Assembly (NCBI GenBank): GCA_016180425.1
Contig: JACPBF010000009.1
Location: 1 to 64,000 of the forward strand
DNA length: 64,000 bases
Source: Elusimicrobiota bacterium
GTDB lineage: Bacteria; Elusimicrobiota; Elusimicrobia; 2-02-FULL-39-32
Reading direction: 5' to 3'
In this document: positions 5,434 through 52,904 of the stretch, in pieces
Numbering within the stretch: the stretch's first letter is position 1
Layout: the number at the start of each line of letters is the position of its first letter
Translations under genes and position numbers: made by a program
Notes under the pieces: model-generated
What the model saw: the letters and a program-made list of their open reading frames with translations, nothing else
Database searches by the model: none
Told to the model about the DNA's origin: nothing

Positions 5434-5600
5434 TTAAACCCGAATATTGCATTAGGACGTTGGATTCGACGAGCGATGGCGGACTTTTTTGTCCTCAAAA
5501 AGCTCGACCGTAGCGAACGCTACGCTCTCACTTTTTTCGTCAAAAAAGTCTCGCCCTCACTCGTCTCCTCCGACACGCCTAATGCAATATTCGGGTTAAA
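5434..5600. repeat. Long imperfect inverted repeat, about 167 bp
   Basis: The outer arms CCCGAATATTGCATTAGG (left) and CCTAATGCAATATTCGGG (right) are exact complements. Inner arms GACGAGCGATGGCGGAC and GTCTCGCCCTCACTCGTC pair with few mismatches, each next to a run of T or A. The centre GTAGCGAACGCTAC is itself a hairpin. The whole could form a cruciform in DNA or one long hairpin in RNA. The short ORF across it (5380-5643) reads through both arms and is not a credible gene. No transposase is near; a MITE-like element or structured RNA are both possible. Confidence 0.8.
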
Positions 5601-5770
5601 GTTGGCGTATAGATATCTAATGAGTGGGACAGGTAGTCAATAATACTTAGAAAGTCAGCTAAGCTCTACAGATGCTCGTAACATTTTTCACCCAACAAGG
5701 AATTAGGCTAGAAGAGGAAGGTTTATAAGTGATTTTTTAGGATAATAGATAGAAAGTTTTAAACTAGTTA

Positions 5771-5826
5771 GAAACTTTTGCAAAAATAATGTTACAAAAA
5801 TGTTACAAAAAGTTTAAGAAAAGTTT
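5771..5826 (+). promoter_or_regulatory. 11-bp iterated TTACA element (copy A)
   Basis: GTTACAAAAAT (5791-5801) and GTTACAAAAAG (5802-5812) are exactly phased, preceded by a degenerate TTTTGCAAAAA and followed by TTTAAGA. A TATAAA at 5840-5845 could be the -10. The same arrangement precedes other giant genes. Spacing and half-site resemble binding sites of OmpR/PhoB-family response regulators (Bacillus PhoP: TT[ACT]A[CT]A with about 5 bp between); the regulator itself is not in the window. A further GTTACAAAG lies at about 5911. Confidence 0.65.
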
Positions 5827-5989: not shown

Positions 5990-6116
5990 TAAAAAAGTTA
6001 GCAACACGCACAAGGCAAATCCGTTGAAAAACGGAGACGCAAAGCTACAAGACTAAGTTCCGAAGATTAAATCGGAATAAGTTGGTTGAGCCGCCGAAGG
6101 TTGAAGAATCTTTAAA
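5990..6116 (+). ncRNA. Cyclic-di-GMP-I (GEMM) riboswitch
   Basis: The conserved aptamer core is visible: ACGCACAAGGCAAATCC at 6004-6022, a CCGTT-GAAA-AACGG hairpin with GNRA tetraloop at 6021-6034, GACGCAAAGC at 6036-6045, a CTAAG segment, a TCCGA...TCGGA hairpin at 6059-6076, and the closing GAGCCGCCGAA at 6088-6098. Flanking TTCTTTAAA and TTTAAAGA can extend the basal stem. An intrinsic terminator follows about 50 bases later, then the start codon of the 5781-residue gene, so this is a transcription-control riboswitch for that gene. The direction of control (on or off) cannot be read here. Confidence 0.85.
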
Positions 6117-6146
6117 GAGAAGTTCTAACTGGATTCTCCATAAGTG

Positions 6147-6188
6147 GCCAACAGTCTTGTAGAAATTACAGAAACTGTTGGCTTTTTT
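6147..6188 (+). terminator. Intrinsic terminator of the riboswitch expression platform
   Basis: Arms GCCAACAGT (6147-6155) and ACTGTTGGC (6174-6182) are perfectly complementary and followed by TTTTTT (6183-6188). It ends 11 bases before the ATG at 6200, so read-through is required for expression. Confidence 0.85.
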
Positions 6189-6199
6189 ATTAAAGATTT

Positions 6200-9100
6200 A
6201 TGGAGAAAAAAGAGATTAAAAAATATCCTTTCTGGACCCGCCTCACTTCCTGCGGTATGGCGGTTATTTTCTTTTACGTGCAAGTGGCTTATGGCGTCAT
6301 TGAACCCAGCTCAAAACTTTGGGAAGAACGAAGAAAAGCAGCGGAAGAGCTAAAAAGGGGAAAACATAAGGGAATACCAAACTCTAACCAAACAGGTAGT
6401 AACTCTGAAGAAAATCAAATTTTGCTGGCAAAAGTGCCTTCACCTGAATCTGACAAAGGTCTTGTGGCTCAACTTCCATCCTTGGAATTGAATGTCCTTT
6501 CTCAGCAGGTTCCTCAAAAACTAGGTTCTGACATTCTTGGATTAGGTTCTCAAAGGGAAAATCTTCAATCTCAAGATGCCAGGCTCCAATCCGAAATCAA
6601 GTGGCTGGAAACTATTCCAGCTAGTTTTGCCAATCTTAAAGAACTTTACCTTCCTTCTCAATGGAAGCCACAAGACCTTATGGTCATCCACATACAGGAT
6701 GTGCATGAAAACTATGAAGCTCAAAAAAATATCGCTCGGATTATTCAAGCTCTTAAAAAACCAGAAATCCAAAGTTCCTTGCAAAGTCCTTCTTCCAACC
6801 CGCAAGTTCAGTTGGTGGTGGGTTTAGAGGGAGCAAAAGGATCCTTTGCTTTTGATTCTTACAGATCCTTACCTGAAAAAGAACATGTAAAAAAGATCGC
6901 TGAGTATTTCTTAAAAGAATCTTTAATTTCCGGAGCAGAATATGTTGGCATGACTTTAGATTCTAAAAATTCTAAAGAGTCTCCAATTCTATTTTGGGGA
7001 GTGGAAAATGAAAGACTCTATTTAGAGCATGTCAGAGCTTTTAAAGATTCTATTCCGCAAGAAAAAGAGGCAAAGAAAATTGTTTTAGATCTGCAAAACT
7101 CTTTAAACCTGCTTAAAACCAAAATATTAAATTCAGATTTAAAAGAGTTAGATGAAAATATGACTTTGCACCATAAGGGTCAGATCAAACTGAGCCAATA
7201 CCTTAAAGTCCTTACTCAGGATGGAATCCCTTCTTATTCAGAGATGATTCGCAAATTTATGAGCGCTTTAAACTTAGAAGAAACCTTAAACTATGAGCAA
7301 GTGGAAAAAGAAAGAAGAGCTCTAACCAATAGTTTAGTTGAGAGACTGCCAAAAGCGGAACTAAAGAATTTAGTTTCATCTGGTCTTTCTTATAGGTTAG
7401 GAAATATCAGTTATGGCGCTTTTTATCAATATTTAAAAGATTTGTGTCAGGCTTATGGGGTGGTTTTAGCCAAATACCCAGAAATGGACAAATATGTTCG
7501 ATATGTTTTAATTGCGGATAAAATTAAAAGTGAGGCGCTATTTAAAGAGGTAGAGAGTTTAGAAAAAAGCAGAGTTCAATCTTTTATTGTGACTAAAGAA
7601 GAAAAAGAGATTGTGGAGTGTTCTAAAGATTTGGTTTTAATGGAAAAGATGGTGGGCTATCGTTTTAGTCCTGAAGATTGGAAAGAGTATCTAAGCAGGA
7701 AGAATGAGATAGTGGATGTGAGCCAAAGAATTAAAAGATTAGAAAAATATTCTGGAAAAACTGGAAGTTTTGGCAAAACAGGGATCAGCATGGTAAACCC
7801 AGAAATTGTAGTGGATCCTTTAATCGCGGGAAAAAAGAAAAAACAAAAATCATCTCAAGGACAAGAGTCAGGAGAGAAGAGCGTTTTAGTTAAAGCGCTT
7901 AAACCTTTTGAAAAATTCAATGAGGCTGCAATTAAAAGAGATAAAGCTTTAGTAGAAAATCTTCTTCATAAGGTAAGAGAAAAGAGGAAACTTCAAGTAG
8001 GAAACCTGGCGCTATTAGTTTCTGGAGGTTTTCACACGCAAGGCATGACAGATCTTTTAAGGCAAAAACAGATTGCTTATGCGGTTTTAACTCCCCGTTT
8101 AGGCAAGGTAGAAGGTACTGGGACAGATTATTTAGAGATTTTCCGCAGAGATAAAACCCCTTTAGAAAAACTTTTTACAGGGGAGCGTATTACCCTTAAA
8201 TCAGAAATGGGAACAGCTTCTAGTTCCATGAAAGAGACTTTACCAATTGTAGGTTTGATTAACCGCTCTTTGATTAATTTGTATGCCATGCTCACTATTT
8301 TTAGCGCGGCAAAATCAGTGACTAATTTAACTCCGGAGCAAAAGGAAGAGATGGCAGAATCTTTAGAGATGGGTTTATCAAAACAGTTTAGAACTGTGGA
8401 TAAAGTGAAGATTGATGAGAATATTCAAACTGCGGGAGATGGAAGAAAAGTGGAAGGGGTGGCTGCTGGCATAGAAATTTTTGGAAAAATTAATGATCAA
8501 AGAAGCGATGTCTATTTTTGGAGCGAACTTTTTGAAAAAAATTCTAGAAAGAAAAAAATCAGTGATTCTTTAGATCCAGAAATTCAACCAGAAGAGATGG
8601 TTTTAGATGATTTTGTGAATCGTCTCTATCCAAGTCACCCTGGATTGACCAATCAAGTTTTAAATGCGCTTTCTGACACTTTAAAATCCGCTTTTGACAG
8701 AGCAAGAAATACCTTTAGTAATATTGATACCCTTCTGGTTGGAGTAAGAGCGCCTACTCCTCAAATCCCCGCAAAAGGAGAAGTTGTTCAGTTTGCGGAG
8801 GAAAGAGTTACTTCTCAGGAAACTATAAGCCAGGAAGGCAAAATTGTTCAGTTTGCTGACAAAAAGGTAGAAAGAATAAATAGATTAAAAGCAGCTTCAA
8901 TCCTCGATGCAATCTTAAGATGGCCGCTGGATAAGTTATCTGAGCTGGATGATCAATCTAAGAATAAAATATTTGAAAACAGAATTTTTCGTTTTCTTAT
9001 AAATATCTATAAGGTTTTTTATGCAGTTGTAACAGGTGTGGTTATGCCATTAGTAGAAACCCATGGGCTTGCCTACGCGGTTACAGTAATTTTTGGCGGG

Positions 9101-12100
9101 AATGTTTTTTTGGCAGCAGCAGTGATCGCTTTGGTTTTTCCCATAGCGCACACAGATCTTTGGGCATTCAAAGGATATGAGGGGGGTAAGTTTAGCTGGA
9201 AGGAATTTGCCTATCGTTTTACTTTAAGGTTTATTGGAGGCGGGGTTTTTACCTTACTTTTAGCTTTGCCTAATGGTTTTGAAATCAGTTTTGCTTTTCA
9301 TATGTTTTGGAACATCGCTTCTGTAATAGGAGAACTTACAGGTCTTTGGAAAATCCTTCCTTTTGCAGTCACTTCCCAACTTCCCAGAACCATTTTAGCT
9401 CCCAGGGGAAAAATAGAAACTGAAAGAATGGTTCCTCCTATCCCTATTAAATTACCTCTTTCTATGGGCGCTAGAAGTATTAAATCAGCAGACCGAACTC
9501 GCAACGAAAATAATCAAGATTCCTATTTTGCAGAAAAGTTAAGCAATGGCATTCAAATCGCCGCTGTATTTGACGGAATGGGAGGTCATCTTGCAGGAGA
9601 GAGGGCTAGCGCTGCTGCGCGCAATGCTATTCAATCTGAATTACGCAAAATCACTGGTCAGGAATCTGAAGAAGAACTCATTAAACTTTTAGAACAGGCG
9701 ATGTTGTTGAGCGTTAAAGCAGTAAGAAAAGAATTGAAAAAAATAAATGGCGGGACCACTGCTACAGTCGCTATTATTTTGCCGCAAATAGACGGTTCTT
9801 CCCGCATATTAATTGCAAATGCAGGGGATTCGCGGGCTTATCTTCGGGGCGTTGATGGCGGATTTGAACCATTAACTGTTGACAATGTTGCGCCCAGAAC
9901 TGCTCAAATTATTAAACAGTCAGAGTTATCTAAACATCCAGATAGAAAAAATCAGGAATTTTTATCCTCTGTTCAGAGCTATAGCGATCTTGATCAAAAG
10001 AGTGAGGAACTTTTTAATGACCGTCATGTTGTAAACAATGTTTTATCTTCTAAGAGTAGATATGTGCCTGTGATTATAGTTGCGCGTGCGCCAAAAGGAT
10101 CGCGTCTCTTACTTACTTCTGACGGCATTCACGATAATCTTACAGACATGGAAATTAAGGATATTCTTGACCAAATGACTGACGACACTTTAGCTCCTCA
10201 GAAAATCGCGGAAAAACTCATTGCCTCTTCTCAAAGAAGAGCAGAGGATGGGTTGAGTTTGCGCAGTAAACCAGATGACATGACTGCTGTGGTTATGGAT
10301 TTAGAAGGTCTGGCAGCAGTCAGTCAGGAATATGCAGTGTTAGATTCCATGAGAAAAGAGGCTGCTAAAAAGGCAGGAACTGAAGGTGCGGTTAAACTTT
10401 CTTTACAAGCAAATACAATGAGTTCTAGTGAAATATACAGCGCTCCAATGCTTCTTACCTTAAGCAATGAAAAAAATAAAAGGAGCGCTGAACTTAGAAT
10501 TTATCATTATAAAGATTTGCCAGAAGATCGGCAGGTCTTAGTGCAAGAGCTTTATGATCAGGGAACTGAATATTTTATTGTGGATATAACCCGATATAAC
10601 CCAAGAGAAGGGTTTGTAGGGTTAAAGGAGGGAGAGAGTCTTTCTTTAGATAAAAATAGCAAAATTTTAATTGCAAAATTGCCTGCTCTAGCCTCTTTTT
10701 TTGATTTTAAAGAAGATGAGGTTAAGGCTGGAAAGATAGGAAAGATCACTCTGCGTAAAGTCAAGGGGAAAGATTTAATTATTATAGAGAATTTAGATGA
10801 GCTGAAAAATGGTTTGGGCTTTGAAATGATCGTAAGACAAGGCGAAAGAACAATAAGTAATTTTAAGCTGGCTTTAAGAAATTTTCAGGTTGATTTAAAG
10901 TATATTTATTTAGCGAAAGTTTTTAATATTGAGAGAAAATTTTATCCTTTATTAAACATATTAAAGGATTTAAGAAGTTCCGAGGTTTATAAACTGCATC
11001 GTTCCTTTGCCATACCCACTATAGAAAACCTTAGTCTTATGTTGTTTTCTGAAACTTTAAAAAATATCTATTGGGTTGCTCATTTTTCCGACCCTACCGG
11101 CGCTTCCAATTTAATTTGGCTGGCAACTACAGCGCTTCTTATGTCTTACCATTTGGTAATTCCCGCAATTTATTTAATCTTTAAGTTTTTATGGAAATTT
11201 ATTTCAGGAAGAATCGCGTTTGAAGATATTGAAAGAGAATTTAACCGTATATTTACAGAGGAATATCCAAGAGAAGAATTGTCGCTTTTTGTGCTTTCCC
11301 AGAGATTGGTTTTTGGCGGATTTTTCGTAACTGCTCCTCTTATTTTCTTTCCTTTAGGGGATGGTCCTTTCCAGACCAGCGGCCCATTTTTTAGTTTAGT
11401 CATGCACATGTTTTTAAACAATCTATTTTTTGTATTGCATCAAAGAGGGTTAGCCACAGAGATGGTTTTAAAACCATTGGATGCTTTAACTCCTCCTCCT
11501 GGAAAAGGTTCAAAGACAGGTTCAGGAAAACTAAAAGGCAGAGCCACAGAGCCTTATACCCCGGCGGATTTATTACAAGGTCTTTTTTATTTTGTGCTTT
11601 ACCCCGCAGGGTATCAATATATGCAATACAGGCGAAACGAAGCGCTGCATGTCATAAAAAGAGTGAAGCGTAAGATTGAGACTATTCAACAGCTTCACTT
11701 AGAAACCAAAGAACTTTTAGGCAAAGAAATTGCGGCAAGATTTTTATCGGACTATGAAAATAGAATAGGAACTTTAGAAAGATATGTTCAGATTGAGTTG
11801 AAAAGGATAATAGAGGAAGGTGAAACAACAGAGTCCATAGATGGCGAAGAAATAAAAAAGAAAGCAACTCCTAAATATGTGGATACGATCTTAAAACCAA
11901 TTAAAGATAGTTTAGGTTCTATTGAGGGACATGTAGATGAAAATCTTGATTATATTCAGTCCTTAATCAATCTTGTGGATAGAGACGGGGAACTTTTAGA
12001 GGCTAACTTATTGTCCGTACAAAAAAAGGCTATGGAATATGCGATGCGTATGAAATGGAAAATGTTAGTTTTTGCTAAACCTTCGATAGGAGATATAGTT

Positions 12101-15100
12101 TATGGAACTACTCTTTCTGCTGTGCAAAGAATGATTGAAACCAAACCTGAAGTTCTGAATTCAGAGAGCATTCTGAAAGGCAATTATGGCTGGGTTGGAT
12201 CCAAAGTAGAATTTAAAGATTGGGATTTAAAAGATCCTAAAAAAGATTTAAGCATGGAGAACTGGGCAACCAATGTTGCTATGGCAGGAGAGAATCCTAT
12301 TTTAATGCGCATGCAGCTTAAAGATGATCTGGATTACATGCAGATTTATGGGTTTCGGGTATATGAAGTTGAGATTTTTGATCCTATAGATTTAGTTTGG
12401 GTAAGACTGGAGAATTTTCGAGAAGAGTGGAGTGAAAGAAATCAAAGAATAAAGGATGAATGGGAACAATTTGTAATGAAAGACGCTCCAAAACTAAAAG
12501 TAAAAGCTAGGGAGCCTGTAGTAGTTAAGAGTAAGAAATTTAAGAAAAAACAAAAAAAGGTTGCGCAGAAAAAGCCTTTAGAATCGTTGCGTAATTTTTT
12601 AATGGATCGCACAAGATTACAAAGACCCTTAGCAGAAACTCTTGTTTTTCAATGGTTTGGCATGGCAGTCCTGCCAGTTCTTTTAACAACATTTTTTGGA
12701 GTGGACCCTGAATTAGCAAAAAACATAGGGATTGCATGGGCTACAGCAGGATTTACTCTGTTTCATTTTGCTTCCAAAATTGTTCAATGGATTGTTAAAG
12801 CAGAGAAAAATGGCTGGACCAGTAAAGATGCAGTAAATTTTGCAATCTTGCTTGTTGTTTCTGCTTTCTTCACCGCCCCCTTTCTAGTTTTAGATCAAGT
12901 TAGTTCCTCACTTATCACGATAGGACTCCATTCTTTTTATAATTCAATTATTCTTTGGGCAAGAGCCAGAGTCAAAGAACTCTCTTCCTTAAGAAAACCC
13001 ATTCCTGGCTGGATAAAATTCATATCTATTCTTCCTTTAGCTCAAATTGCTGCTCCACAGCTCCCTAGAGGTATTAGCATTTTGGAAGTTAAAAAGGATC
13101 ATTTAAAAGATGCTACTCGAGATGCAGAAGATTTAGCCAAAATTTTATTTAGCGATCCAACTGTAGAAACAGTAGATATGCTCCGTGAAGTAACAGGGAT
13201 CAATTTTGAACTTTCTGATCTTACTGAAAATTATCAGGTTAACTTTTTAGGCTCTGGCAGTCACAAGTGGATGTTTATGATCGAGTTAAGCTTAAAAGAT
13301 GGACGGAGTGTTATTTTTAATTTGGGGTTGAGTAATAATGATTCTCCCAATGCTATTGGGCCACAAGAACTAGAAGATTTAGAGATTTTATCTACAAGTG
13401 GGTATGTGCCACGAATTGGAAAAATAGGTGAATACAATTCTAGAAAATATTTTGTAGGACAGTTTATAAAAGGTTCAACTCCTAAAAAATTAAAAGAAAA
13501 AGGGCCTCTAAATTTGGATAAACGTAAATTAATTGTTCAAACCCTTTTAACCATTACTTTTTTACTTGGCAATAATATGCCTAAAGATATCCATGCTGGA
13601 AATTTCATCCTTACAGGTAGGAACAATCAAGATTCTGCTGTAATAATAGATTTAGGAGAAAGAAGACAACCCATTGAAGTAGGTCTGATCAGGATCATTA
13701 GTCATTATGGATATTTTGGAAAGGACAAAGGGAGCAATAGCTTTATTTTTCAAGCATTTGCAGATCGTTTAGGGGAGAATGGCGTAGATGTTTTAAAAGA
13801 GAATTTAAAGCTTTTAAATAGAGTTAGAGAGGATGAAAAAAGAACTGGAAAAGGGCTAACTCTAACACCATTGGATAAAGAGATTTTAAGGCAGGAAAGA
13901 GGTGAACCAGCTTTACAACCAGAAGATGTGGACAGGGTCATTCAAGAGTTAGAGGAATTTCTTGCTCAGTTTGAACGTTCTCCTGCTCAAACTTTTACTG
14001 ACCAAACTGTAACTCCTGTTTCAGCGCAGGATCGCATTATTGAAGCAATTGAAAAAGCGTTTCTAGAAGCAGCTAAATCTGAGGATGCATGGCCTGACTT
14101 TAAAAATCTTAAAAGTGTTGTTGAGGAATTTTATTTAACTAAAGATAAAATTCCTCAAGAGATAGACCAAATTGTCTATGAAATGGTGAAGAAGTTTAAT
14201 GAATCGTTTAAATCCTGGAAAGAGACGAGTAAAGCTGCTAAAGAGCGTGAGATTGTGGCTCTTGTAAAAAATGAGTTCATGGATGTCTTAAGGAGTCTAC
14301 AGCAGGATCCTCTAATGCCGCAAATAAAAGGCAGAGATTCTTTTTTAAAATTACTTCAGAACACTCCGATAGAAAAGTGGGATAAAATTTGGTATGTGAT
14401 GGGGGATTTAGATCTTATAGGCACAATCAATAAAATTTTAGGAAAATCAATTGTGGGTAGTTTAAATTATAGTGATTCCCCGGATTTAGAATTTGCCAAA
14501 AGATCTTTATTTAGGGAAATTCGCGCAGTATTGGCGAAGGAAGCTAAAGATTTAGGATTTCTTTTAATTTATAAAGGTGTGGGAGCAGATGAGTTTAACC
14601 TTGTTTTTGTAGGAGAGCAAGAGCTTGTGGAGCAAAGAGTGAGTGAATTAGTCAAACGCGTGAATAATCATTTCTTGAGTGTAAAAAATAGTTCACGCAA
14701 TAGTTATGATGTTTTTGAGATTAAGTCGGCTGATCTTACTTCAGAACAAAAAGCTAAGTTAGAAGAGATGAAAGGTTCGCTTGTTTTAGCAAGATATGGC
14801 TCAGGATATACGCTTTTGGTGGATAGAAAAATAACTTCTAAAAATCAGATTGAGCAGGAACTGAATACCATTATTGGTAAAGAAAATTATGAAGCTATTA
14901 AATATGATGATGAAACAACTGGACTTTTTACTATTTCTGCTAGCGCAGTTTCTGCAAAACAGGTTTTGGATCATATGGGGGAACTAGCGCCATCCCTTAA
15001 AAATATATATGAGAAAAAGAAAGATGTAGTTATTTCTGAAGAAGAATTCAGCAGCCAGTGGATAGTGGAGGAAAAGCCAACCCCTCTTTTTTTAAATTTA

Positions 15101-18100
15101 ATGATGTGGATCAATAATGATTTCTTATCCATGGCTAAGGAAAACGGAAGGAATCGCGCAGTTATTTCTCTTAATTTAAGAAAGGAGCTTGAAAATTCAA
15201 AGAATCCCATCACTCTAGAGGTCATAGAAGAGCTAGAAAAACAGGCTCCAGAAAAATATTCCACCCCATCCCAAGAGAATTTTAACTATCAGATTAGTGA
15301 GGGAGAATTCCAACATATCTATTACTTTAGCGTGCATCAATTTTTTGATGAAGAAGCTTTTGAACAGTTGAAAAAAGATGGGAAGATTAAGGAAAAAAGC
15401 GCAGTTCCTCATATGCGCGCATTTCATTGGCTGCAAACCATCATTAATTATTTTGGCGGAAATAGAGCTATTAAGCTTTTTGAAGATCAGGTTGTGGCTC
15501 TGATAGGTCAAGCTTACAAAGACAAGAGAGGTAAATCCTCTGAAAAATTAACAGATCAAGGGAGCGGAAAAGAAAGAGAAGAGGGTTCTGAGAAGTTAGT
15601 TTACACGCGATTCCAGCCGGAAAATATCATGGTTGCTGCAAATGTGGATATTCGCGGTCCTCCTTTAGATCAAATGGCAGAGGCCTATGAGCAAGGGATG
15701 AAAAATATAAAAGATAAAGATGATAAGGAATTATCAATTAGCCCCACCTATCTTGTTTTTGATGTTCCTTTAGTTGAGTTAGAAAATCTTAAACAAACCA
15801 ATCCAGAACTATACGAAAAATTACAAAATCAATTTAGACTTGTAGATATGATTAAAAGTATTGTGGATATGATGAGCGCAGTATCCACTAATCTTGATAA
15901 GTTAGAGGAGGTTGTAGATTTTTCAATAGAGGGTAAATTTAAAATTTTACGCTTTAATCATAAAAAGGTAGATCAGCTTTTAAAAGAATATCGTTCTTCT
16001 CAAGATAGCGCTAAAAATTCTGGCAAAGATGAGATGAAAGAGAAGCGTAAAAAGATGCGTAAAAATATGTCAGCTGCTGCTACAACAGAGGGAACTTACG
16101 ATCTAGTTTATAACGTATTAGACTTTTTATCATTTTTAAATAAAAAATTAGGATTAGAACGTTTAGGGTTGCATTTCCCAGATGCTAGCAAAAGAAGTTT
16201 TGCGATAGACCAATGGATACAAGAGAAATTTGCTCGTTGGTGGGAATCTCCAGAATTTATGTGGATATCATTGCCTTGGAATCAGATGGGCAGGGAAAGG
16301 TTTTTAGCAAAACATGAGAATGATACTCCAGAAAAATTAGAGGTTCGTAGAGCTGGAATTAAAAACATTGTGGAAGCAACTCAAAAGGCATTTATCGCGG
16401 GAGTTATAGCCGGGTTAATAGTTGCTTTATTTTTTGTCATTCCATTTTTTAGCGCACAAGTTGTGGATTTAAATGTTTTGCTTCGTTTTAGTTGGAAAGT
16501 TGTAGGAGCTATTTTTGTCGCAGGATTGGTGCCATCTTATATTACAAATGTTTGGCAGCATGGAAAATTTAATCTGCAAAATCCTTTTGCTCCTTTAACA
16601 GCAGGAACAGCGGTTTTTCAAGAAAGGCTGAATATTGTTACCCGCTCTCCTCAGATGAGCGGGGATCAGAGAGAGGGTGGAAGAGATGTGCCTTTAGGAA
16701 TTGTTCAGCTTGTAGAAGAAAAAGAAAAGGCTGAAGAGACAGAATTAGTAGGCAGAATGGCGCAAGATCAAGCGCAATTAAGTTCTGGCTGGCAAGCAGC
16801 AGTATCGCAATATATGGGTGGGAGGAGTCAAGAGAGTAAAGTTGCTGGAGTTAAAGAAGCTTATTCAGAATTAGATACAGTTTTAGATCAGCTCATTGAA
16901 AAATATAGTTCTATTCTTATGATTGGCAGCATGGCTTTGGCTGGAATAGGACTGATTGTTTCATTTTTTAATCTTTGGATTGGAGTTCCTTTATTAACTT
17001 TAGGCAGTGGTATTGCGGTTGGTGTCCTATTGAAGTCTTCTGATTTAAAAGTAGAAAAAGATCGTTTAGCTAAAAAAGAGGCTTTAAGAAAAGGTATAGA
17101 GAAAAAGCAAAAAGAGCTTCAGAGTTTGTACAGAAGCAATCTTGCGATTGCTCAGATCCTATCTAATGCAGAGGCCATTGGCTATAAATTTACAGATGAT
17201 TTTAAACTGAGATTATTGCGAGGAGCTAGAGTTGTTAGAAATACAATAGTGGATGAAAAAGGGAGTATGATTGGCAGTGTTATTTATCAAAATGGAAAAT
17301 TAATTCCTGCTTTTAAGGCAGTAAGACAATTGAAAGGGGTATCTGGGAATGAGTGGAGTAAGGGAGAGATTATAAAAGCGCTTGCAACCAACATGATGCA
17401 AAAAGGTTGGGATAAAAAATATATTGTTGAACTCCTTCAATCCACTATTAATGAGAAGGGAGAGATTATTAATAAAGAAGGAGTTAAGATCGGAACTTTT
17501 CAATACAAAAATGGAAGGTTTATTCCTTTTATTTTTGATCGCTATGCTCCTCCTTTAAAAACAGACAGCTTAATTAAAAAAGTTTTAGCAGCCAGGGGAC
17601 ATACAACCAGTAACCTAGCACTTGTCACAGGATCATGGGGCGTGTGGGCTCTTTTACCTCAAGATTATAGATTTTTTGGATTTAGAAGACTCTCCATAGG
17701 AGGTTTTCTGGAAGATATCTTTATCATCCTTGCTGGAGTAGTTATCCTGATTAACACAGGCTTAATGCCAGTTGTGCCTCCTACAGATTTCTTAAGTTAT
17801 AGCCATGTAGTTTTATCTTTAATAATAAATCCTTTGATTATTTATGGCGGTCTATTTTTAGGCCATCTCTTATTTGGAGTGGTTGACCCTAAAACTAAAA
17901 AAGTGGTTTGGGATTTAGAAAAGATTTTTGCCGCGACACAAACTGCTCGTTCCCCTTTAGTTGCCATACCCATCATTCATTTAATTTTATTATTCACAAG
18001 CGGACCCCTTTCCATTCTTGCTGTTTTAGTCACTGTATTTGTTTCAGCAGTTTATCATGGGAATAAGAATTTAGGTATAGAAGAGCAGGATGAGTTAAAA

Positions 18101-21100
18101 GGAAAGGCTAGAAAAAAATCTCCTACGAAATTTGTTCAAGGCACAGATCAACAGGCCAGGCAAAGAAATTGGGAGAAAAGTCTTAAGATATTAGATGAAT
18201 CTTTTGATAAAGGAGACTATTTGCAAAGGATGCCTCCTGAATTTAGATACTTAAAAGCCATTGAAATAAAAAGAATCGTTACAAGCATTGCCAATATTAG
18301 AATTTTAGGCTTAGAAAGAGCAATCGCTCCGAATGAAGTAGAAGATGAAGATGAAGTTATTTTGAATCAGATATTAAGAATTTTCTGGATGATAGATCTA
18401 AGGAATTTAAGTGATCATCAAACTCCAGAAATCGCTTTAGAGCTGCTTAGGAAAATAGCAGAAGACGCGGTTAAAATCAAAAAGAATCTTAATTTAAAAG
18501 ATGGTTTGCTCCTGTATTTTACTAAAAAGATTTCAGAGGACACGCTTGTTCTTACCGCTTTAAAGGCACGAGAAAATCCAATAGAATCTTTTAATTCCTA
18601 TTTAAAAATATTGAACAGGGATCATCCATATTTAAATAGCCAATGGCACCGTACCTATACCTATACTGGCAAAGATAAAGAACCAGAGCGCCAGGCTCTT
18701 TTACAGGCGATAAGCGCTATTTATCAAGTGGATCCTCTTTTAAAACCAGAACATGTTGCAAGAATATTAAATTTTGTGGATGAGCACCCCAGATTACTAA
18801 GAGATAATCCGCATAAGCTTTGCTACGAAGCTTTAAGAGGCATAGCTATTACCATGAGATATTTGTCATCTGTTGAAGTTGGCTCTCATTCTTTTGGTTC
18901 CCAAGAGATTATGCAAAATTTCTTGTATAGAATTTCTGGGCTTGTTCCATCAGGATTAAGAGATAGAACCCAAGAAGGATGGGCTCAAAGGGAAACAGAA
19001 GACACTTATTCTAATTTTTTAGCCATGGTAAAAATTTCTCAAGCTGCTCCCTCTGCTTCCTTAAAAGATTCCATTCAGTCCCCTCGCGTTCAATCCTTAG
19101 TTTTACAAGCAGATCCGAAGAAAATTTTAATTGCCCAGGCGCTTTTAGATCAAGCTCGTTTAGAACTAAAGCTGGCCAATGATTTTATTGAACATTTAAA
19201 CGGTTACTTAGATCTGAATCTAAATCCATTTGATCTGGAAGAGAATAAAGAAGATATTCTACAGGAACTTAATCAAGAAAGGATCGTAGAACTTGCGCGA
19301 ACCATTGCAAGGTTACGAGGCGCGTTTAATTATGATGAGATGTTTATTTTACTTACATTAGTTTATGCCCCTTCCTTAAAATCTTTAGGCGTTAGAAAGG
19401 TGTTTAACACTTTAGAAAAAGTTGCGCAAGAGAAAGAAGCTCAAGGATTGGGGATTATGGTTAACCAGCGCGCAAAAGTTGATTTAGCCGGGATATTTGA
19501 AAGACTGATAAAAGAAGAATTGGCAAAAGAGAATAGAGCGCTTTCACAAGCTGGAGCTGCTCCTCTGGGAACTCCTTCTAAAGCAGCGTCTAAACCAGTG
19601 TTAGGAAACGCGATTGACAAATTTAGAGAACTGCAAGCTAGTAAAAAATTAGCGATCATTGAGGGGGTGGATGATCAAGAGATGATTGGGCTTATTGAAA
19701 TTTTAGTGGAATTAGGAAATACAGACCGTTTTGAGGCAGACTTATTACCTGTGCTTGAACTGATAAATAGCGATTTAAGATTTAAAGAAGAAAATTTAAG
19801 TCCTAGACAATCTTTTGAAGTGTTAAGAGAGATCGCTATAAAGAAAAGAGATTTAGTAAGGGATGGAAAGTTAATCTTAGAAAAAAAAGCAGCGAGACAA
19901 ACCCAAGAGCTGCTCGTAAATAAATTCAGTCGCTGGATTGGGGAATGGAAAAACGAAAGAGAGGGAGAGAAAGAAAAAATAAAACAGAGACCAAAACAAG
20001 ATAGAATTAGATCCATTACTTTTGAGCCAGCAGTAAAGAGAGCAGCTTTTGCTCAGCCAAAAGTTAAGGATCCTTTGGAGACCATAGCCAGAACTTTATT
20101 AAATCCTAAATCAAGATACTCTAATTCTCAAATTGCTGATTTAGTTAAGAATGAAGAAAGTTTGGAAGCTAAAGTGAGTTCGCTCAAAAACATTCTTCAA
20201 CCTTATATCGCTCCTATTTTAAGCTTAAAGGGAGATATAAATACATTATTGGATGTGGAGAAATTAAATTATGCGGAGGAGATCGTCAATATCGTGAATT
20301 TAGTCTCTATTATTACTTTACGTTCTCGTGGTTCTAAATCGGTTCTAGAAGCTTTAAGTGAATTAAAAAAGATTGGGGAGGCTTTGCAAAACGCGATTAG
20401 ACAAGGGGATCAAACTTTTAGTGTGCTTAGACTAAAAGATTTTTCCATACCCAATAAAAATTTAAAAGCATCTTTAAATTTATGGAGACTTTACGAAGCG
20501 GTCATTGATAAAAATTATCCTTCTACAAGCGTGTTGGTGCAAGCCACCCAGCCTAAAACCTATAAAGCAGTAGAGAATTTTTTTGCAACGTTTGGAGTGC
20601 AAGTTCCTAAAGAGTGGTGGGTGACCTCCACATTTTTTTCTGGATTTTTAGAATCTAACCAAACATTGCCTGCCATGCTCAGCAGAAATGCTTTAGATCA
20701 ATTCATCCAAACTCATAACCCAACAACAGAGCAAAGAGCCTGGCTAGAAACAACTCTAAATTTTATGAAGGTTTCAACTTTGGTTGGCTTAGGAGTTGGT
20801 TTAAGCTTTAGCGCTCATGCATTTGGTTTTAGTGGAATTGAAGCAATAGGTAAAATAATTCTAACCACCTCCTCCAGCGCTTATCTTTTTCATGTGGCAA
20901 GCCATTCTTTAAGAAATGTGCAGCAGAGGTTTGGCGATGGCATGGCTATAGGAATTACCGCTATTTTAGTTGGTCTTTTTTCTGCTGGTTCTGGCTATGC
21001 AATAACTTTGACTGGAAGTGAGATTCTTGGCTCTGGCTTAATGGCTGCTGGCTGGCCAGTAGTGATTGTAGTATCTGTTATTCTTGTGCTTGCCTCTATT

Positions 21101-23545
21101 CTTGGGCCAGGAAGAAAACCAGAAGCAGTTCCTTACGGCGTTTCTCAAGCTGATTCTTTAGTTCCAGAGATTCATGCTCCACTGCCCTTAGTTGATGCGT
21201 TTACACTGGAAGGAAGTGGAATTGATCAGGGGACTCTAGACTCTGGAGAAAAACAAGAAATTTATAAAATTGTTTTTATTTCAGATGCGAAAACCATAGC
21301 TGATAAGTTTAATAAGGTCTGGTTTACTGAGCAAGTTGGAGAAGGTGTGGATATTAGGCAACTGATGAATATGTTAGATGCTCTTAAAGGCAGTAACCCT
21401 TTGATGTTGAAGCTTATAGGAAAAACTATTGAACAGAATGTAAATCTTAAAAAATTGTTGGTAGATCCTTTAGTAGATTTAGTTTTACATTTACATTTAG
21501 AAGATGAAATTAAAAAAGATGAAGTTGCTAGAAAAGACCAGTACATAGAGCAATTAAAATCGCATATTTCAAGAGCAGCAGCCCTGCATGCTTTAAAAGG
21601 TTTAATGCCAGAAGCTGCGGATATAGAATTAACAAATGCTTTTAATAGTTTAATGGATAGCATGGAGAGAGCAAAGATATTTCAACATCTTTCCATTAAT
21701 TCTAGAACAGCGCAAAATCATATTTTGATAGTGGAAATCGCTAAAGCAATTCATGATTTTGAAAGACAAACTCAAACAAAACTGCCAATCACCGTGCATA
21801 CAGCTTCAGACATTTTTACCACCTTTTTAAGCCGCTTAAATTTGGATAAAAGGTTGTTTGCAGTTCCAGCTGCAGCTGCGGAAAAAATTAAAACTCCCAC
21901 CACAGGCTCTTTAAGGCGTGGTCTAGCGACTGGCACACTTCCGGAAACTTATCTTGCAGGAAGAAAATTTTTTAAGGATAAGTTTGGCTGGGAAAACGCT
22001 CCTAATACAGTGATTAATATCTTTTTTGCCGGGGCGTATGAATCGCTAAAATCATTCAGAAGCTTTAAATTATTTCAAGAACACCAAGAAAAACTAAATC
22101 TTACCCCTTTTCAACAGATTCAATTGGGAGTCACATTCCTATTTATTTCAGCAGCCATGATTGGCACAGCCATAGGGCTTCCTTTTGGCTTAGATTTTTT
22201 AAATTCTGGCGGAGCTTTAAAACATATGGGGGGCGATTTAGCAGCCTCTTTCTTAGGAATAGTAACTTATGCTCTGGGATTAAGATTAAGTTATGCGCCT
22301 GAAAGTCAAGGGAAGGTTTTTGATTTAGTAAAACGGTTATTTCCTGTTTTGGCTTTTCCCATGATTTTTATTGGCGCCATTGTTCATGGTTTGTTTAATC
22401 TGCTTTCCCTTATTATTAATTTTGTGATGGATGAAGTTCAATTAGTCATAGATTTTTACAAGTCAGAAACAACTTTAAGCAAAGAATATAAAAAAGTAGA
22501 GGTTAAAGCTAAAGTAAGTCTGCCTCATCTGATTCAACCACTGAGTCAAATAGAAAAAGAGTATGATGCTCTATTAACTAATAATCAAAATCCAGATAAA
22601 CGAAGACTTTTTTTAAGAAGCCTTAAGGTCTTAGCTTTAGCTGCTGCTTTAGGAGCTGCCAGCGCACAGGCGATGCCCCAAGCAACGACCATTGATCTTT
22701 ACTCCCTTCCTACTGTTCTTGGCCATTTAACAGCGCAAGAGCTGGCAGGTCAAATTAATTCTCTAGAAGATTATAAAAAAATATTGGATGAAGCTAAAAA
22801 TCAAGAAGAGAAAGATTCATTTGAGGTGGAAGTTATAAGATTACTGATGCATGGGGGAGAGGCTGAATATTTGGGTCTAAATTTAGATGGCGTAAACATT
22901 TCATTTAATGATCTTTACGCAGCCATAGAGCAAACTTTTTCAAAATATAAAATTTCTAGAAAAGCCGCTTTAAAGATTTGGAATTTAGGCAAAAAAAGAG
23001 CTGAAATAAATTCAACTTCTAAGCTCCTTTCTATGGATGAAATTGAGCAGCTGCCAAATATTCCTTCAGATAAAAACAAGATTCCCGGAGAACTATTTTA
23101 TGGCTCTGGACTTTCAGCCAATGGCTACGTTCATTTAGTCAATAAAATTACGCGCATACAGCTAGAAGAGGGTAAAAAGAAAAGAGCGCATTTCCTTTTA
23201 GTGGAAACTAGAGAGGAGCTTGAAGTTCTTAATGTTCATGGAATTAGCCCTGCATTATTAGCCTTCAAAGGGGTTCATATTATTGTTAGGGAAGAGGCGG
23301 AAGAATTAAACAAGATTAAAGGCAGCGCCATTGATTTAGATCTTTTATTTAAAGTAATTCATAAACTAGACAAAGAAGTCGGCTCATTAGACATCTATAC
23401 GGAAAAAAGGGTGTTTAAGAAAGGAAAAAGAAAAGAGCTGCAGATTAGAATTTTAAAGATTGTTTCCCAGACCCAAGTGATTGAAATCACCAGTGATCTT
23501 GAGCTCTTTGCCAAAGCCAAACAGCTCCTCTCCAGACAACAATAA
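6200..23545 (+). CDS. Giant exported multidomain signalling protein (5781 aa)
   Basis: Domains in order, by approximate residue. Hydrophobic export segment 12-33. Domain 150-640, opening VIHIQDVHENYEAQKNIA and closing LVSGGFHTQGM, shared with two other giants. CPBP-like membrane block 930-1050 (FPIAH, HMFWN). PP2C phosphatase 1085-1370 with NNQDSY, VFDGMGGH, GGTTATVAI, NAGDSRAYL, TSDGIHDN and PDDMTAVV, so metal ligands are intact. More CPBP-like blocks near 1610-1750 (HMFLN), 2130-2265 (FTLFH, HSFYN), 3800-3960, 4855-4970 and 5300-5410 (HGLFN). Kinase-like domain 2330-2600 (GSGSHK, MPKDIHAGNF, IIDLGERRQP). GGDEF-like domain 2725-2830 (GDLDLIGTINKILG, GVGADEF). An internal signal-like segment ending AASAQA lies near 5490. 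The protein ends SRQQ. No Shine-Dalgarno is seen before ATG 6200; the ATG follows the riboswitch terminator. Confidence 0.85.
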   Translation: MEKKEIKKYPFWTRLTSCGMAVIFFYVQVAYGVIEPSSKLWEERRKAAEELKRGKHKGIPNSNQTGSNSEENQILLAKVPSPESDKGLVAQLPSLELNVLSQQVPQKLGSDILGLGSQRENLQSQDARLQSEIKWLETIPASFANLKELYLPSQWKPQDLMVIHIQDVHENYEAQKNIARIIQALKKPEIQSSLQSPSSNPQVQLVVGLEGAKGSFAFDSYRSLPEKEHVKKIAEYFLKESLISGAEYVGMTLDSKNSKESPILFWGVENERLYLEHVRAFKDSIPQEKEAKKIVLDLQNSLNLLKTKILNSDLKELDENMTLHHKGQIKLSQYLKVLTQDGIPSYSEMIRKFMSALNLEETLNYEQVEKERRALTNSLVERLPKAELKNLVSSGLSYRLGNISYGAFYQYLKDLCQAYGVVLAKYPEMDKYVRYVLIADKIKSEALFKEVESLEKSRVQSFIVTKEEKEIVECSKDLVLMEKMVGYRFSPEDWKEYLSRKNEIVDVSQRIKRLEKYSGKTGSFGKTGISMVNPEIVVDPLIAGKKKKQKSSQGQESGEKSVLVKALKPFEKFNEAAIKRDKALVENLLHKVREKRKLQVGNLALLVSGGFHTQGMTDLLRQKQIAYAVLTPRLGKVEGTGTDYLEIFRRDKTPLEKLFTGERITLKSEMGTASSSMKETLPIVGLINRSLINLYAMLTIFSAAKSVTNLTPEQKEEMAESLEMGLSKQFRTVDKVKIDENIQTAGDGRKVEGVAAGIEIFGKINDQRSDVYFWSELFEKNSRKKKISDSLDPEIQPEEMVLDDFVNRLYPSHPGLTNQVLNALSDTLKSAFDRARNTFSNIDTLLVGVRAPTPQIPAKGEVVQFAEERVTSQETISQEGKIVQFADKKVERINRLKAASILDAILRWPLDKLSELDDQSKNKIFENRIFRFLINIYKVFYAVVTGVVMPLVETHGLAYAVTVIFGGNVFLAAAVIALVFPIAHTDLWAFKGYEGGKFSWKEFAYRFTLRFIGGGVFTLLLALPNGFEISFAFHMFWNIASVIGELTGLWKILPFAVTSQLPRTILAPRGKIETERMVPPIPIKLPLSMGARSIKSADRTRNENNQDSYFAEKLSNGIQIAAVFDGMGGHLAGERASAAARNAIQSELRKITGQESEEELIKLLEQAMLLSVKAVRKELKKINGGTTATVAIILPQIDGSSRILIANAGDSRAYLRGVDGGFEPLTVDNVAPRTAQIIKQSELSKHPDRKNQEFLSSVQSYSDLDQKSEELFNDRHVVNNVLSSKSRYVPVIIVARAPKGSRLLLTSDGIHDNLTDMEIKDILDQMTDDTLAPQKIAEKLIASSQRRAEDGLSLRSKPDDMTAVVMDLEGLAAVSQEYAVLDSMRKEAAKKAGTEGAVKLSLQANTMSSSEIYSAPMLLTLSNEKNKRSAELRIYHYKDLPEDRQVLVQELYDQGTEYFIVDITRYNPREGFVGLKEGESLSLDKNSKILIAKLPALASFFDFKEDEVKAGKIGKITLRKVKGKDLIIIENLDELKNGLGFEMIVRQGERTISNFKLALRNFQVDLKYIYLAKVFNIERKFYPLLNILKDLRSSEVYKLHRSFAIPTIENLSLMLFSETLKNIYWVAHFSDPTGASNLIWLATTALLMSYHLVIPAIYLIFKFLWKFISGRIAFEDIEREFNRIFTEEYPREELSLFVLSQRLVFGGFFVTAPLIFFPLGDGPFQTSGPFFSLVMHMFLNNLFFVLHQRGLATEMVLKPLDALTPPPGKGSKTGSGKLKGRATEPYTPADLLQGLFYFVLYPAGYQYMQYRRNEALHVIKRVKRKIETIQQLHLETKELLGKEIAARFLSDYENRIGTLERYVQIELKRIIEEGETTESIDGEEIKKKATPKYVDTILKPIKDSLGSIEGHVDENLDYIQSLINLVDRDGELLEANLLSVQKKAMEYAMRMKWKMLVFAKPSIGDIVYGTTLSAVQRMIETKPEVLNSESILKGNYGWVGSKVEFKDWDLKDPKKDLSMENWATNVAMAGENPILMRMQLKDDLDYMQIYGFRVYEVEIFDPIDLVWVRLENFREEWSERNQRIKDEWEQFVMKDAPKLKVKAREPVVVKSKKFKKKQKKVAQKKPLESLRNFLMDRTRLQRPLAETLVFQWFGMAVLPVLLTTFFGVDPELAKNIGIAWATAGFTLFHFASKIVQWIVKAEKNGWTSKDAVNFAILLVVSAFFTAPFLVLDQVSSSLITIGLHSFYNSIILWARARVKELSSLRKPIPGWIKFISILPLAQIAAPQLPRGISILEVKKDHLKDATRDAEDLAKILFSDPTVETVDMLREVTGINFELSDLTENYQVNFLGSGSHKWMFMIELSLKDGRSVIFNLGLSNNDSPNAIGPQELEDLEILSTSGYVPRIGKIGEYNSRKYFVGQFIKGSTPKKLKEKGPLNLDKRKLIVQTLLTITFLLGNNMPKDIHAGNFILTGRNNQDSAVIIDLGERRQPIEVGLIRIISHYGYFGKDKGSNSFIFQAFADRLGENGVDVLKENLKLLNRVREDEKRTGKGLTLTPLDKEILRQERGEPALQPEDVDRVIQELEEFLAQFERSPAQTFTDQTVTPVSAQDRIIEAIEKAFLEAAKSEDAWPDFKNLKSVVEEFYLTKDKIPQEIDQIVYEMVKKFNESFKSWKETSKAAKEREIVALVKNEFMDVLRSLQQDPLMPQIKGRDSFLKLLQNTPIEKWDKIWYVMGDLDLIGTINKILGKSIVGSLNYSDSPDLEFAKRSLFREIRAVLAKEAKDLGFLLIYKGVGADEFNLVFVGEQELVEQRVSELVKRVNNHFLSVKNSSRNSYDVFEIKSADLTSEQKAKLEEMKGSLVLARYGSGYTLLVDRKITSKNQIEQELNTIIGKENYEAIKYDDETTGLFTISASAVSAKQVLDHMGELAPSLKNIYEKKKDVVISEEEFSSQWIVEEKPTPLFLNLMMWINNDFLSMAKENGRNRAVISLNLRKELENSKNPITLEVIEELEKQAPEKYSTPSQENFNYQISEGEFQHIYYFSVHQFFDEEAFEQLKKDGKIKEKSAVPHMRAFHWLQTIINYFGGNRAIKLFEDQVVALIGQAYKDKRGKSSEKLTDQGSGKEREEGSEKLVYTRFQPENIMVAANVDIRGPPLDQMAEAYEQGMKNIKDKDDKELSISPTYLVFDVPLVELENLKQTNPELYEKLQNQFRLVDMIKSIVDMMSAVSTNLDKLEEVVDFSIEGKFKILRFNHKKVDQLLKEYRSSQDSAKNSGKDEMKEKRKKMRKNMSAAATTEGTYDLVYNVLDFLSFLNKKLGLERLGLHFPDASKRSFAIDQWIQEKFARWWESPEFMWISLPWNQMGRERFLAKHENDTPEKLEVRRAGIKNIVEATQKAFIAGVIAGLIVALFFVIPFFSAQVVDLNVLLRFSWKVVGAIFVAGLVPSYITNVWQHGKFNLQNPFAPLTAGTAVFQERLNIVTRSPQMSGDQREGGRDVPLGIVQLVEEKEKAEETELVGRMAQDQAQLSSGWQAAVSQYMGGRSQESKVAGVKEAYSELDTVLDQLIEKYSSILMIGSMALAGIGLIVSFFNLWIGVPLLTLGSGIAVGVLLKSSDLKVEKDRLAKKEALRKGIEKKQKELQSLYRSNLAIAQILSNAEAIGYKFTDDFKLRLLRGARVVRNTIVDEKGSMIGSVIYQNGKLIPAFKAVRQLKGVSGNEWSKGEIIKALATNMMQKGWDKKYIVELLQSTINEKGEIINKEGVKIGTFQYKNGRFIPFIFDRYAPPLKTDSLIKKVLAARGHTTSNLALVTGSWGVWALLPQDYRFFGFRRLSIGGFLEDIFIILAGVVILINTGLMPVVPPTDFLSYSHVVLSLIINPLIIYGGLFLGHLLFGVVDPKTKKVVWDLEKIFAATQTARSPLVAIPIIHLILLFTSGPLSILAVLVTVFVSAVYHGNKNLGIEEQDELKGKARKKSPTKFVQGTDQQARQRNWEKSLKILDESFDKGDYLQRMPPEFRYLKAIEIKRIVTSIANIRILGLERAIAPNEVEDEDEVILNQILRIFWMIDLRNLSDHQTPEIALELLRKIAEDAVKIKKNLNLKDGLLLYFTKKISEDTLVLTALKARENPIESFNSYLKILNRDHPYLNSQWHRTYTYTGKDKEPERQALLQAISAIYQVDPLLKPEHVARILNFVDEHPRLLRDNPHKLCYEALRGIAITMRYLSSVEVGSHSFGSQEIMQNFLYRISGLVPSGLRDRTQEGWAQRETEDTYSNFLAMVKISQAAPSASLKDSIQSPRVQSLVLQADPKKILIAQALLDQARLELKLANDFIEHLNGYLDLNLNPFDLEENKEDILQELNQERIVELARTIARLRGAFNYDEMFILLTLVYAPSLKSLGVRKVFNTLEKVAQEKEAQGLGIMVNQRAKVDLAGIFERLIKEELAKENRALSQAGAAPLGTPSKAASKPVLGNAIDKFRELQASKKLAIIEGVDDQEMIGLIEILVELGNTDRFEADLLPVLELINSDLRFKEENLSPRQSFEVLREIAIKKRDLVRDGKLILEKKAARQTQELLVNKFSRWIGEWKNEREGEKEKIKQRPKQDRIRSITFEPAVKRAAFAQPKVKDPLETIARTLLNPKSRYSNSQIADLVKNEESLEAKVSSLKNILQPYIAPILSLKGDINTLLDVEKLNYAEEIVNIVNLVSIITLRSRGSKSVLEALSELKKIGEALQNAIRQGDQTFSVLRLKDFSIPNKNLKASLNLWRLYEAVIDKNYPSTSVLVQATQPKTYKAVENFFATFGVQVPKEWWVTSTFFSGFLESNQTLPAMLSRNALDQFIQTHNPTTEQRAWLETTLNFMKVSTLVGLGVGLSFSAHAFGFSGIEAIGKIILTTSSSAYLFHVASHSLRNVQQRFGDGMAIGITAILVGLFSAGSGYAITLTGSEILGSGLMAAGWPVVIVVSVILVLASILGPGRKPEAVPYGVSQADSLVPEIHAPLPLVDAFTLEGSGIDQGTLDSGEKQEIYKIVFISDAKTIADKFNKVWFTEQVGEGVDIRQLMNMLDALKGSNPLMLKLIGKTIEQNVNLKKLLVDPLVDLVLHLHLEDEIKKDEVARKDQYIEQLKSHISRAAALHALKGLMPEAADIELTNAFNSLMDSMERAKIFQHLSINSRTAQNHILIVEIAKAIHDFERQTQTKLPITVHTASDIFTTFLSRLNLDKRLFAVPAAAAEKIKTPTTGSLRRGLATGTLPETYLAGRKFFKDKFGWENAPNTVINIFFAGAYESLKSFRSFKLFQEHQEKLNLTPFQQIQLGVTFLFISAAMIGTAIGLPFGLDFLNSGGALKHMGGDLAASFLGIVTYALGLRLSYAPESQGKVFDLVKRLFPVLAFPMIFIGAIVHGLFNLLSLIINFVMDEVQLVIDFYKSETTLSKEYKKVEVKAKVSLPHLIQPLSQIEKEYDALLTNNQNPDKRRLFLRSLKVLALAAALGAASAQAMPQATTIDLYSLPTVLGHLTAQELAGQINSLEDYKKILDEAKNQEEKDSFEVEVIRLLMHGGEAEYLGLNLDGVNISFNDLYAAIEQTFSKYKISRKAALKIWNLGKKRAEINSTSKLLSMDEIEQLPNIPSDKNKIPGELFYGSGLSANGYVHLVNKITRIQLEEGKKKRAHFLLVETREELEVLNVHGISPALLAFKGVHIIVREEAEELNKIKGSAIDLDLLFKVIHKLDKEVGSLDIYTEKRVFKKGKRKELQIRILKIVSQTQVIEITSDLELFAKAKQLLSRQQ

Positions 23546-31165: not shown

Positions 31166-31194
31166 TTGCAATTTGCATAGAATTGCGTTATACT
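31166..31194 (+). promoter_or_regulatory. Sigma-70-like promoter, leaderless geometry
   Basis: TTGCAA (31166-31171), 17-bp spacer, TATACT (31189-31194). The predicted start at 31201 coincides with a GTG codon in frame with the ATPase gene. Confidence 0.65.
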
Positions 31195-31200
31195 ATTCAA

Positions 31201-52736: not shown

Positions 52737-52904
52737 AAAAGTTTCTTTATTTTTTTATATCTTTCATTTAGGAGCCTGAGCCTTAGTTGTTTGGGTTTCT
52801 TAGGGAAATGACCTAGAGAAGTCCGTTTGTATTAGCATTTATTTTGAAATGGTTGAATCCAGTAAAAATCTATGAAAGGGCAATGATGTTCTAAAGTGGA
52901 AAAA

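Follow-up and report, generated by a model that had tools for sequence, protein, structure and literature searches.

Giant proteins of uncultured bacteria offer almost no functional handles, and an RNA sensor in front of such a gene is one of the few, since it names the signal that controls the gene. The window analysed here, the first 64,000 nucleotides of contig JACPBF010000009.1, comes from an uncultured groundwater Elusimicrobia MAG (G000; 2.6 Mb in 43 contigs). A sequence-only reading of this DNA had proposed that a cyclic-di-GMP riboswitch controls a giant exported protein that itself carries a GGDEF-like domain. The locus thus raises the question of whether the same class of signal acts on both the gene and its product, and in which direction. 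Features of the locus are collected in Table 1, and a genome of the same genus, Elusimicrobia bacterium RIFCSPLOWO2_02_FULL_39_32 (G001, which includes record MGUU01000016.1), serves as the sister species throughout.

Table 1. Features of the riboswitch-led giant gene and its leader (positions in the window; aa, residues of the giant protein)
Feature	Position	Strand	Remarks
Conserved upstream element GTTACAAAAAGTTTAAGAAAAGTTT	5802..5826	+	putative function, inferred
c-di-GMP-I (GEMM-I) riboswitch aptamer	6004..6098	+	RF01051, 75.4 bits, E 5.4e-13
Aptamer P3 5′ strand CUACAAGACU	6045..6054	+	alternative partner 6153-6162 (antiterminator)
Intrinsic terminator, hairpin 6146-6183 plus U run	6146..6188	+	between aptamer and ATG
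Giant protein, 5,781 aa	6200..23545	+	single open frame from ATG 6200
N-terminal signal-peptide or anchor segment MAVIFFYVQVAYG	6200..6301	+	conserved in riboswitch-led paralogs
N-terminal family domain (HIQDxHxNxEAQ...EGA...GGFHTxGM)	6584..8269	+	common to ~22 giant genes
First four-segment membrane group, aa 934-1057	8999..9371	+	HxxxN-type motif; weakly Rce1/CPBP-like
PP2C protein phosphatase domain, aa 1113-1347	9536..10240	+	PF00481, E 7.3e-14
Variable cassette, aa ~2287-3340	13058..16219	+	low identity to G001 ortholog
Kinase/APH-like stretch	13187..13700	+	glycine-loop-like start, KDIHAGNF ... IIDLGE; sequence reading
GGDEF-like module 1, aa 2691-2998	14270..15193	+	DPL..., GDLDLIGTIN, GADEF, TISASA, AKENGRNR
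GGDEF-like module 2, degenerate, aa ~3005-3218	15212..15853	+	profile versus canonical GGDEF

The riboswitch and its leader

The covariance search with RF01051, which the sequence-only reading had proposed as a check, is significant. The match covers the model in full length (positions 1-87) with a score far above the gathering score of 35, and it is the sole Rfam match above threshold within the window. Aptamer, terminator and start codon follow each other in the order that had been read from the letters. In the numbering of the Vc2 structure, position 20 of the aptamer, which selects the ligand, is G, the c-di-GMP type. An A at this position (G20A) shifts the selectivity of GEMM-I RNAs toward cGAMP (PMC6274999). 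The RNA is therefore a predicted c-di-GMP-I riboswitch, and its sequence supports a preference for c-di-GMP over cGAMP.

Both a terminator and an antiterminator are detected in the expression platform downstream of the aptamer. The terminator hairpin is calculated at -17.3 kcal/mol (z -4.6), a value equalled by none of 200 shuffles, and is likewise found in the leader of the G001 ortholog; a simple terminator scan is blind to it owing to the loop rule of that scan. The alternative structure arises from the 5′ strand of P3, which is a perfect 10-nt complement of AGUCUUGUAG at 6153-6162, a segment spanning the 5′ arm and the loop of the terminator, and the pairing is extended by the adjacent GGUUG.GCC. 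The cognate antiterminator duplex reaches -24.3 kcal/mol, compared with -9.9 ± 2.7 for shuffled arms (0 of 300 as good) and a mean of -11.1 for the window arms paired with those of other leaders. This pairing is identical in the G001 ortholog, and in G005 (genus g5) an equivalent pairing is made with different letters (-16.3; 5 of 300 shuffles as good). By the same duplex test, most other riboswitch-led leaders of G000 show no strong antiterminator of this kind. When the 3′ arm of the terminator is left out, the antiterminator fold lies at -51.6 versus -34.3 for the two halves folded apart. For the full-length leader it lies at -53.8 versus -42.5 for the Rfam aptamer plus terminator, ligand energy excluded, and the gap is small (-53.8 versus -51.1) when the upstream half is free to adopt its most stable structure.

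In the OFF switch Cd1, an antiterminator competes with aptamer and terminator, which can form side by side (PMC9262584). The same compatibility holds in the window, where both exclude the antiterminator, and shut-off by c-di-GMP is therefore predicted. At low c-di-GMP, CUACAAGACU would be taken up by the terminator's loop and 5′ arm, so that no terminator forms and the 17-kb gene is transcribed; c-di-GMP binding would keep CUACAAGACU within the aptamer, the terminator would form, and transcription would end before the ATG. Because the full-length energies differ little, this OFF direction of the Cd1 type is to be read as one inferred from folding models that leave out ligand and kinetics. An ON switch, or translational control instead of attenuation, appears unlikely. 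It would accord with the closeness in energy of the competing full-length folds, with the fact that GEMM-I RNAs are known in both directions (PMC9262584), and with six relatives in which the ATG lies just 1-5 nt 3′ of the aptamer (L025, L026, L027 and L028 in G000, L167 in G001 and L178 in G004). However, an antiterminator that borrows a strand from an aptamer compatible with the terminator, and a pairing kept in the ortholog and rebuilt with other letters in G005, argue for attenuation in the window, and most of the near-ATG relatives have a terminator too, within the start of the coding sequence. In five of these six, a terminator hairpin with a seven-U run is located ~75-90 bases into the coding sequence, and it is weaker in C32 (L027). 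The hairpin lies over TCTTTTTTTAT, which codes for a conserved VFFYVQ core, and it is possibly an intragenic expression platform. It is not proof of riboswitch action, because L111 and L116, giant genes with such a hairpin in their coding start, keep it with no visible aptamer and no Rfam match.

Further upstream, GTTACAAAAAGTTTAAGAAAAGTTT is found at 17 sites in G000, namely at 5802-5826, 52720-52744 and 60012-60036 of the window and at 14 others, where none is expected by chance. At least 6 of the 17 closely precede giant-protein genes, and the element is possibly a shared promoter or regulator site. In C21 it is placed between the riboswitch terminator and the gene, where it could be a riboswitch-independent promoter. 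At ~5438-5602, 5′ of the leader, AACCCGAATATTGCATTAGG ... CCTAATGCAATATTCGGGTT forms a long inverted repeat that may be a small mobile element.

Architecture of the giant protein

The 5,781-residue product is confirmed as one open frame. An ortholog is present in the sister species with a dN/dS of ~0.35, an estimate that includes the swapped block described below, and the frame is therefore a real gene. The N-terminal domain (aa ~129-690) carries the motifs HIQDVHENYEAQ, EGA and GGFHTQGM. Its AlphaFold model is fair (pLDDT 79), and the fold matches, EreC and ChaN among them, all have E > 0.05. PF04187 is matched in 2 of 17 members of the N-domain family (E 0.0025), and the domain is possibly Tiki/ChaN/EreA-like, judging from these similarities. 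A profile search of the PDB with the same domain returned only EF-hand-like helical noise and was discarded.

Behind this domain the protein turns into a series of membrane segments and soluble parts. In addition to the first four-segment group, further groups of this type are located at aa 1646-1746 and 2148-2252, and ~18 strong hydrophobic segments follow the N-terminal one in total. The kinase/APH-like stretch has weak best matches, an Ark-family kinase at E 0.08 and APH at E 0.3. The flanks of the four-segment groups are rich in K/R, which by hydropathy and flanking charges, a crude measure, places the large loops inside. Probably, the PP2C and GGDEF-like parts are cytosolic and the N-terminal domain is outside the membrane. 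The word "exported" therefore probably applies to one part of the protein and is doubtful for another: the N-terminal part looks translocated, and the phosphatase and GGDEF-like parts do not, by the same crude charges. One may alternatively regard the whole protein as an exported giant surface protein, whose cytosolic-looking domains act outside or are relics, as its signal-like N-terminus and the literature on Omnitrophota and Elusimicrobia, which takes their giant ORFs for proteins of the surface or of predation (PMC10066038, PMC12057145), would allow. This is doubtful in view of the many hydrophobic segments beyond the N-terminal one, of the K/R-rich flanks that suggest an inner location of PP2C and the cassette, and of the substrates of PP2C and GGDEF, which are cytosolic.

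The giant proteins of the window (6200-23545, 26587-31116, 34146-44129 and 52896-59825) and several riboswitch-led paralogs end in ...QQ-stop, possibly a shared C-terminal signal. In the two at 34146-44129 and 52896-59825, whose N-termini are both signal-like, a domain resembling patatin phospholipases (E 1e-37) and a segment resembling UTP-glucose-1-phosphate uridylyltransferase (E 2e-10) are found. Genes for AAA_14/DUF4143 (or similar) ATPases are found between the giant genes, at 4033-5190, 23632-24819, 25095-26336 and 31183-32358.

A tandem of GGDEF-like modules

The motifs from which a GGDEF-like domain had been read are GDLDLIG at aa 2735 and GVGADEF at aa 2793. Pfam GGDEF (PF00990) gives no match in the window protein, in its 8 homologs, or at C10 in a whole-genome search, and a scan of the genome contigs with the GGDEF-like domain finds nothing. 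More sensitive comparisons are positive. When the window protein and the 8 homologs are aligned (alignment A1) and the 9-sequence profile is compared with the PDB, seven of the eight matches are diguanylate cyclases (E 0.02-1.4, listed to E 10), with DxD, GGDEF and AKxxGRN collinear. Against a set of 28 canonical GGDEFs from the same class as the window genome, hhalign gives a score of 39.9, compared with 16.7 ± 4.6 (maximum 32.4) for 200 column-shuffled controls, none of which is as good. The stretch from DxD to GADEF is thus GGDEF-like, as had been supposed. A single-sequence AlphaFold model of this domain alone has a pLDDT of 44 and is uninformative about the fold.

Conservation among the nine copies is concentrated in a part of the cyclase site. 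The two D and the N of DxD...N, the G-x-D of G[GA]DE and the AK..G are invariant in all nine, as is the [GA]D[ED] core, and one copy has another residue for the Arg of GR. Module 1 of the window protein keeps the DxD metal site, the N of FKxxND, the DE pair and AKxxGR, and has lost the Lys of FK. The guanine-contact Asp (GHxxGD) is replaced by S, T, N, V or G in 9/9 copies, by S or T in 6/9, in an alignment accurate to ±1 residue; an inhibitory RxxD (I) site upstream of GADEF is absent from the window sequence. The GADEF spelling had been taken to suggest altered activity or a sensor role. Since the second Gly of the motif is Ala in five of the nine copies and Gly in four, the spelling is not peculiar to the window protein, and with G[A/G]DEF varying freely among paralogs the Ala alone is weak evidence.

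Immediately downstream, a second module aligns to canonical GGDEF even better than module 1 does. With a family profile, hhalign gives a probability of 92% (P 5.2e-7) and a score of 53 versus a shuffled maximum of 18.6, and the DxD and GGDEF motifs are absent. From these alignments, the window protein appears to hold a tandem in which module 1 has a plausible metal site and module 2 is degenerate. Module 1 retains those residues that in a cyclase serve metal and triphosphate, and the pair most likely binds, and perhaps forms or senses, a guanine (di)nucleotide. That the resemblance is due to chance or to another palm domain (class III cyclase, or the Cas10/GTP-cyclohydrolase-III type) is very improbable. 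The silence of Pfam GGDEF, one family member that touches GTP cyclohydrolase III at E 0.07, an FK-less helix after DxD and one extra residue before the second Gly are in line with such an origin; nevertheless, diguanylate cyclases make up nearly all PDB profile matches, ANDLLKxAKxxGRN at the C-terminal end is a typical GGDEF motif, the collinear profile alignment beats 200 of 200 controls, and module 2 aligns to GGDEF independently.

Both modules lie in a region that behaves differently from the rest of the protein. The cassette is 27-43% identical to the G001 ortholog in a protein that is 74-97% identical elsewhere in most 250-residue blocks, and because of this difference it has the look of a swapped block. 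The G001 cassette opens directly with its own GGDEF-like module, and the kinase/APH-like stretch is absent from it. A GGDEF-like module is present in both species despite the sequence exchange, which suggests, as far as alignment can tell, that aa ~2287-3340 is an exchangeable cassette in which the module is retained.

Paralogs and sister species

The arrangement recurs in paralogs. In a profile search, the N-terminal domain is found at ~22 places in G000, with open frames up to 10,906 aa, and it is present in 20 of 60 related genomes surveyed; a count of 44 giant genes in G000 was a count of HSPs and was rejected. Ten GEMM-I RNAs are present in G000, six of which precede N-domain giant genes (C10, C19, C21, C32, C34 and C41). 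A seventh (C39, L024) precedes a disrupted giant gene whose counterpart in G001 (C25, L172) is intact: L024 reads for 132 aa only, L172 is open for thousands of bases, and the disruption reflects either a decayed gene or an assembly error. Elsewhere, riboswitch-led giant genes number four in G001 and one each in genera g4 and g5.

A survey of 341 genomes of the phylum gives five GGDEF-like modules in G000, three in G001 and one in G013, plus a weak match in G323. All copies with a visible 5′ end are riboswitch-led in G000 (4/4) and in G001 (3/3). Four of four would occur by chance with a probability of ~0.002 given that 6 of 22 giant genes are riboswitch-led, in a calculation where paralogs and orthologs are not independent. 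The link between riboswitch and GGDEF-like module is limited to the genus, because the module of G013 is unaccompanied by any GEMM-I RNA in that genome, and G323 has its riboswitches on other contigs than the weak domain match. A 13,760-aa open frame from another family of the class contains, at G010:C13:8148-8540, a match to canonical GGDEF (139 bits, positions 2-133).

Ligands and the supply of cyclic dinucleotides

A class-wide survey gave 90 GEMM-I RNAs, of which 83 are cleanly readable at position 20; in 23 of the 83 this position is A, the cGAMP-type, GEMM-Ib-like base. Three such aptamers are present in G000, and one of them precedes a giant gene (C19). A PF00990 search of G000 finds four loci, all other than the window protein. 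The genome has canonical GGDEF enzymes, and therefore c-di-GMP is likely made. In the 28 canonical GGDEFs, the residue at the Hypr position is D in 25 and N in three (L142, L143 and L165), and Ser/Thr is found in 0/28.

Like Hypr GGDEFs such as GacA (PMC6456294), 6/9 of the GGDEF-like copies carry Ser/Thr close to where the guanine-contact Asp would be. The signature of natural Hypr enzymes is GGDE[F/Y] (PMC6456294), whereas 5/9 copies here have GADEF or GADEI, in an alignment uncertain by one residue; where the Hypr criterion combines Ser/Thr 348 with GGDE[F/Y], the window module has Ser with GADEF. The giant modules are candidate makers of cGAMP with low probability. A more elaborate scheme may be imagined, in which the pair of a catalytic and a degenerate module, resembling a two-domain cyclase, makes a cyclic dinucleotide besides or other than c-di-GMP (e.g., cGAMP), and the giant paralogs, with leaders of either the c-di-GMP or the cGAMP base, form a self-regulating network where each giant protein contributes to making the signal by which giant-protein genes are shut off. 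We consider this clearly improbable.

A putative feedback loop

Taken together, the claim that the riboswitch controls a giant GGDEF-like protein gains from the placement of the aptamer and from its G20, and it is refined by the OFF direction, the tandem pair, the variable cassette, and the recurrence in paralogs and the sister species. The reading that we hold with moderate confidence is that an OFF-type riboswitch attenuates a giant multi-pass membrane signalling protein with a GGDEF-like pair, and that the same class of signal acts on gene and product. PP2C and the cassette with its two GGDEF-like modules would be on the inner side and the N-terminal domain probably outside, and the circuit would be one of negative feedback, provided that the product makes c-di-GMP. 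Or the GGDEF-like link may be incidental: the riboswitch would then serve a programme of cell-envelope lifestyle, and the cassette would be an enzymatically dead structural or binding module shuffled among giant paralogs. This is a real possibility, though one that we lean against. Most other targets of the 90 GEMM-I RNAs have signal-like N-termini and are, as named by sequence reading, PorV-like outer-membrane, prepilin-like and small secreted proteins; furthermore, the module has lost residues that are key in canonical cyclases, paralogs of shared descent do not count as independent cases of co-occurrence with the riboswitch, and the domain is present in G013 without a riboswitch. On the other hand, every visible GGDEF-like copy in the genus (7 of 7) is riboswitch-led, whereas the ~22 giant genes of G000 include just 6 that are; the residues for metal and triphosphate do not vary, and the module persists in the exchanged cassette. 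If the feedback loop is true, a second messenger gates very costly genes of 17-40 kb, and a divergent branch, invisible to current domain libraries, is added to the GGDEF superfamily.

Comparison with known systems

The two halves of this arrangement are known separately, as riboswitch-led cyclic-dinucleotide genes (PMC7266159) and as giant ORFs of these phyla (PMC10066038, PMC12057145). In the open-licence literature searched, no case was found of riboswitch control of giant ORFs, of both halves together, of divergent GGDEF-like modules in tandem or of such a cassette exchange. The arrangement shared with sister genes suggests a feedback loop in giant proteins that is not described before in that literature.

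Cd1 of Clostridioides difficile (PMC9262584) shares with the window the aptamer class, transcriptional control, and a coexisting aptamer and terminator opposed by an antiterminator. Its targets are flagellar genes, whereas the target here is a giant membrane signalling protein, and in the window, unlike in Cd1, the antiterminator joins both P3 strands to the arm and loop of the terminator. Canonical GGDEF domains (PF00990; PleD, WspR, DosC) have D.LT..., DxD.....N, GG[DE]EF, TxSxG and AKxxGRN in the same collinear order. The window module differs from them in its sub-Pfam similarity, its long inserts, the missing Asp of GHxxGD, Lys of FK and RxxD, and the degenerate second copy behind it.

GEMM-I RNAs precede genes of the c-di-GMP network (Sudarsan 2008, as related in PMC7266159). 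These cases are alike in that one transcription unit joins the riboswitch to a protein related to cyclic dinucleotides; compared with them, the window product is no ordinary cyclase or phosphodiesterase, being a membrane protein of 5,781 aa with several domains, among them the divergent modules in tandem. The giant ORFs of Omnitrophota, Elusimicrobia and other PVC relatives (PMC10066038, PMC12057145) resemble it in their thousands of residues, several membrane segments and few recognised domains, and in being many per genome. Unlike them, the genes defined here form a riboswitch-led subfamily with PP2C and GGDEF-like modules, for which the RNA sensor names the controlling signal.
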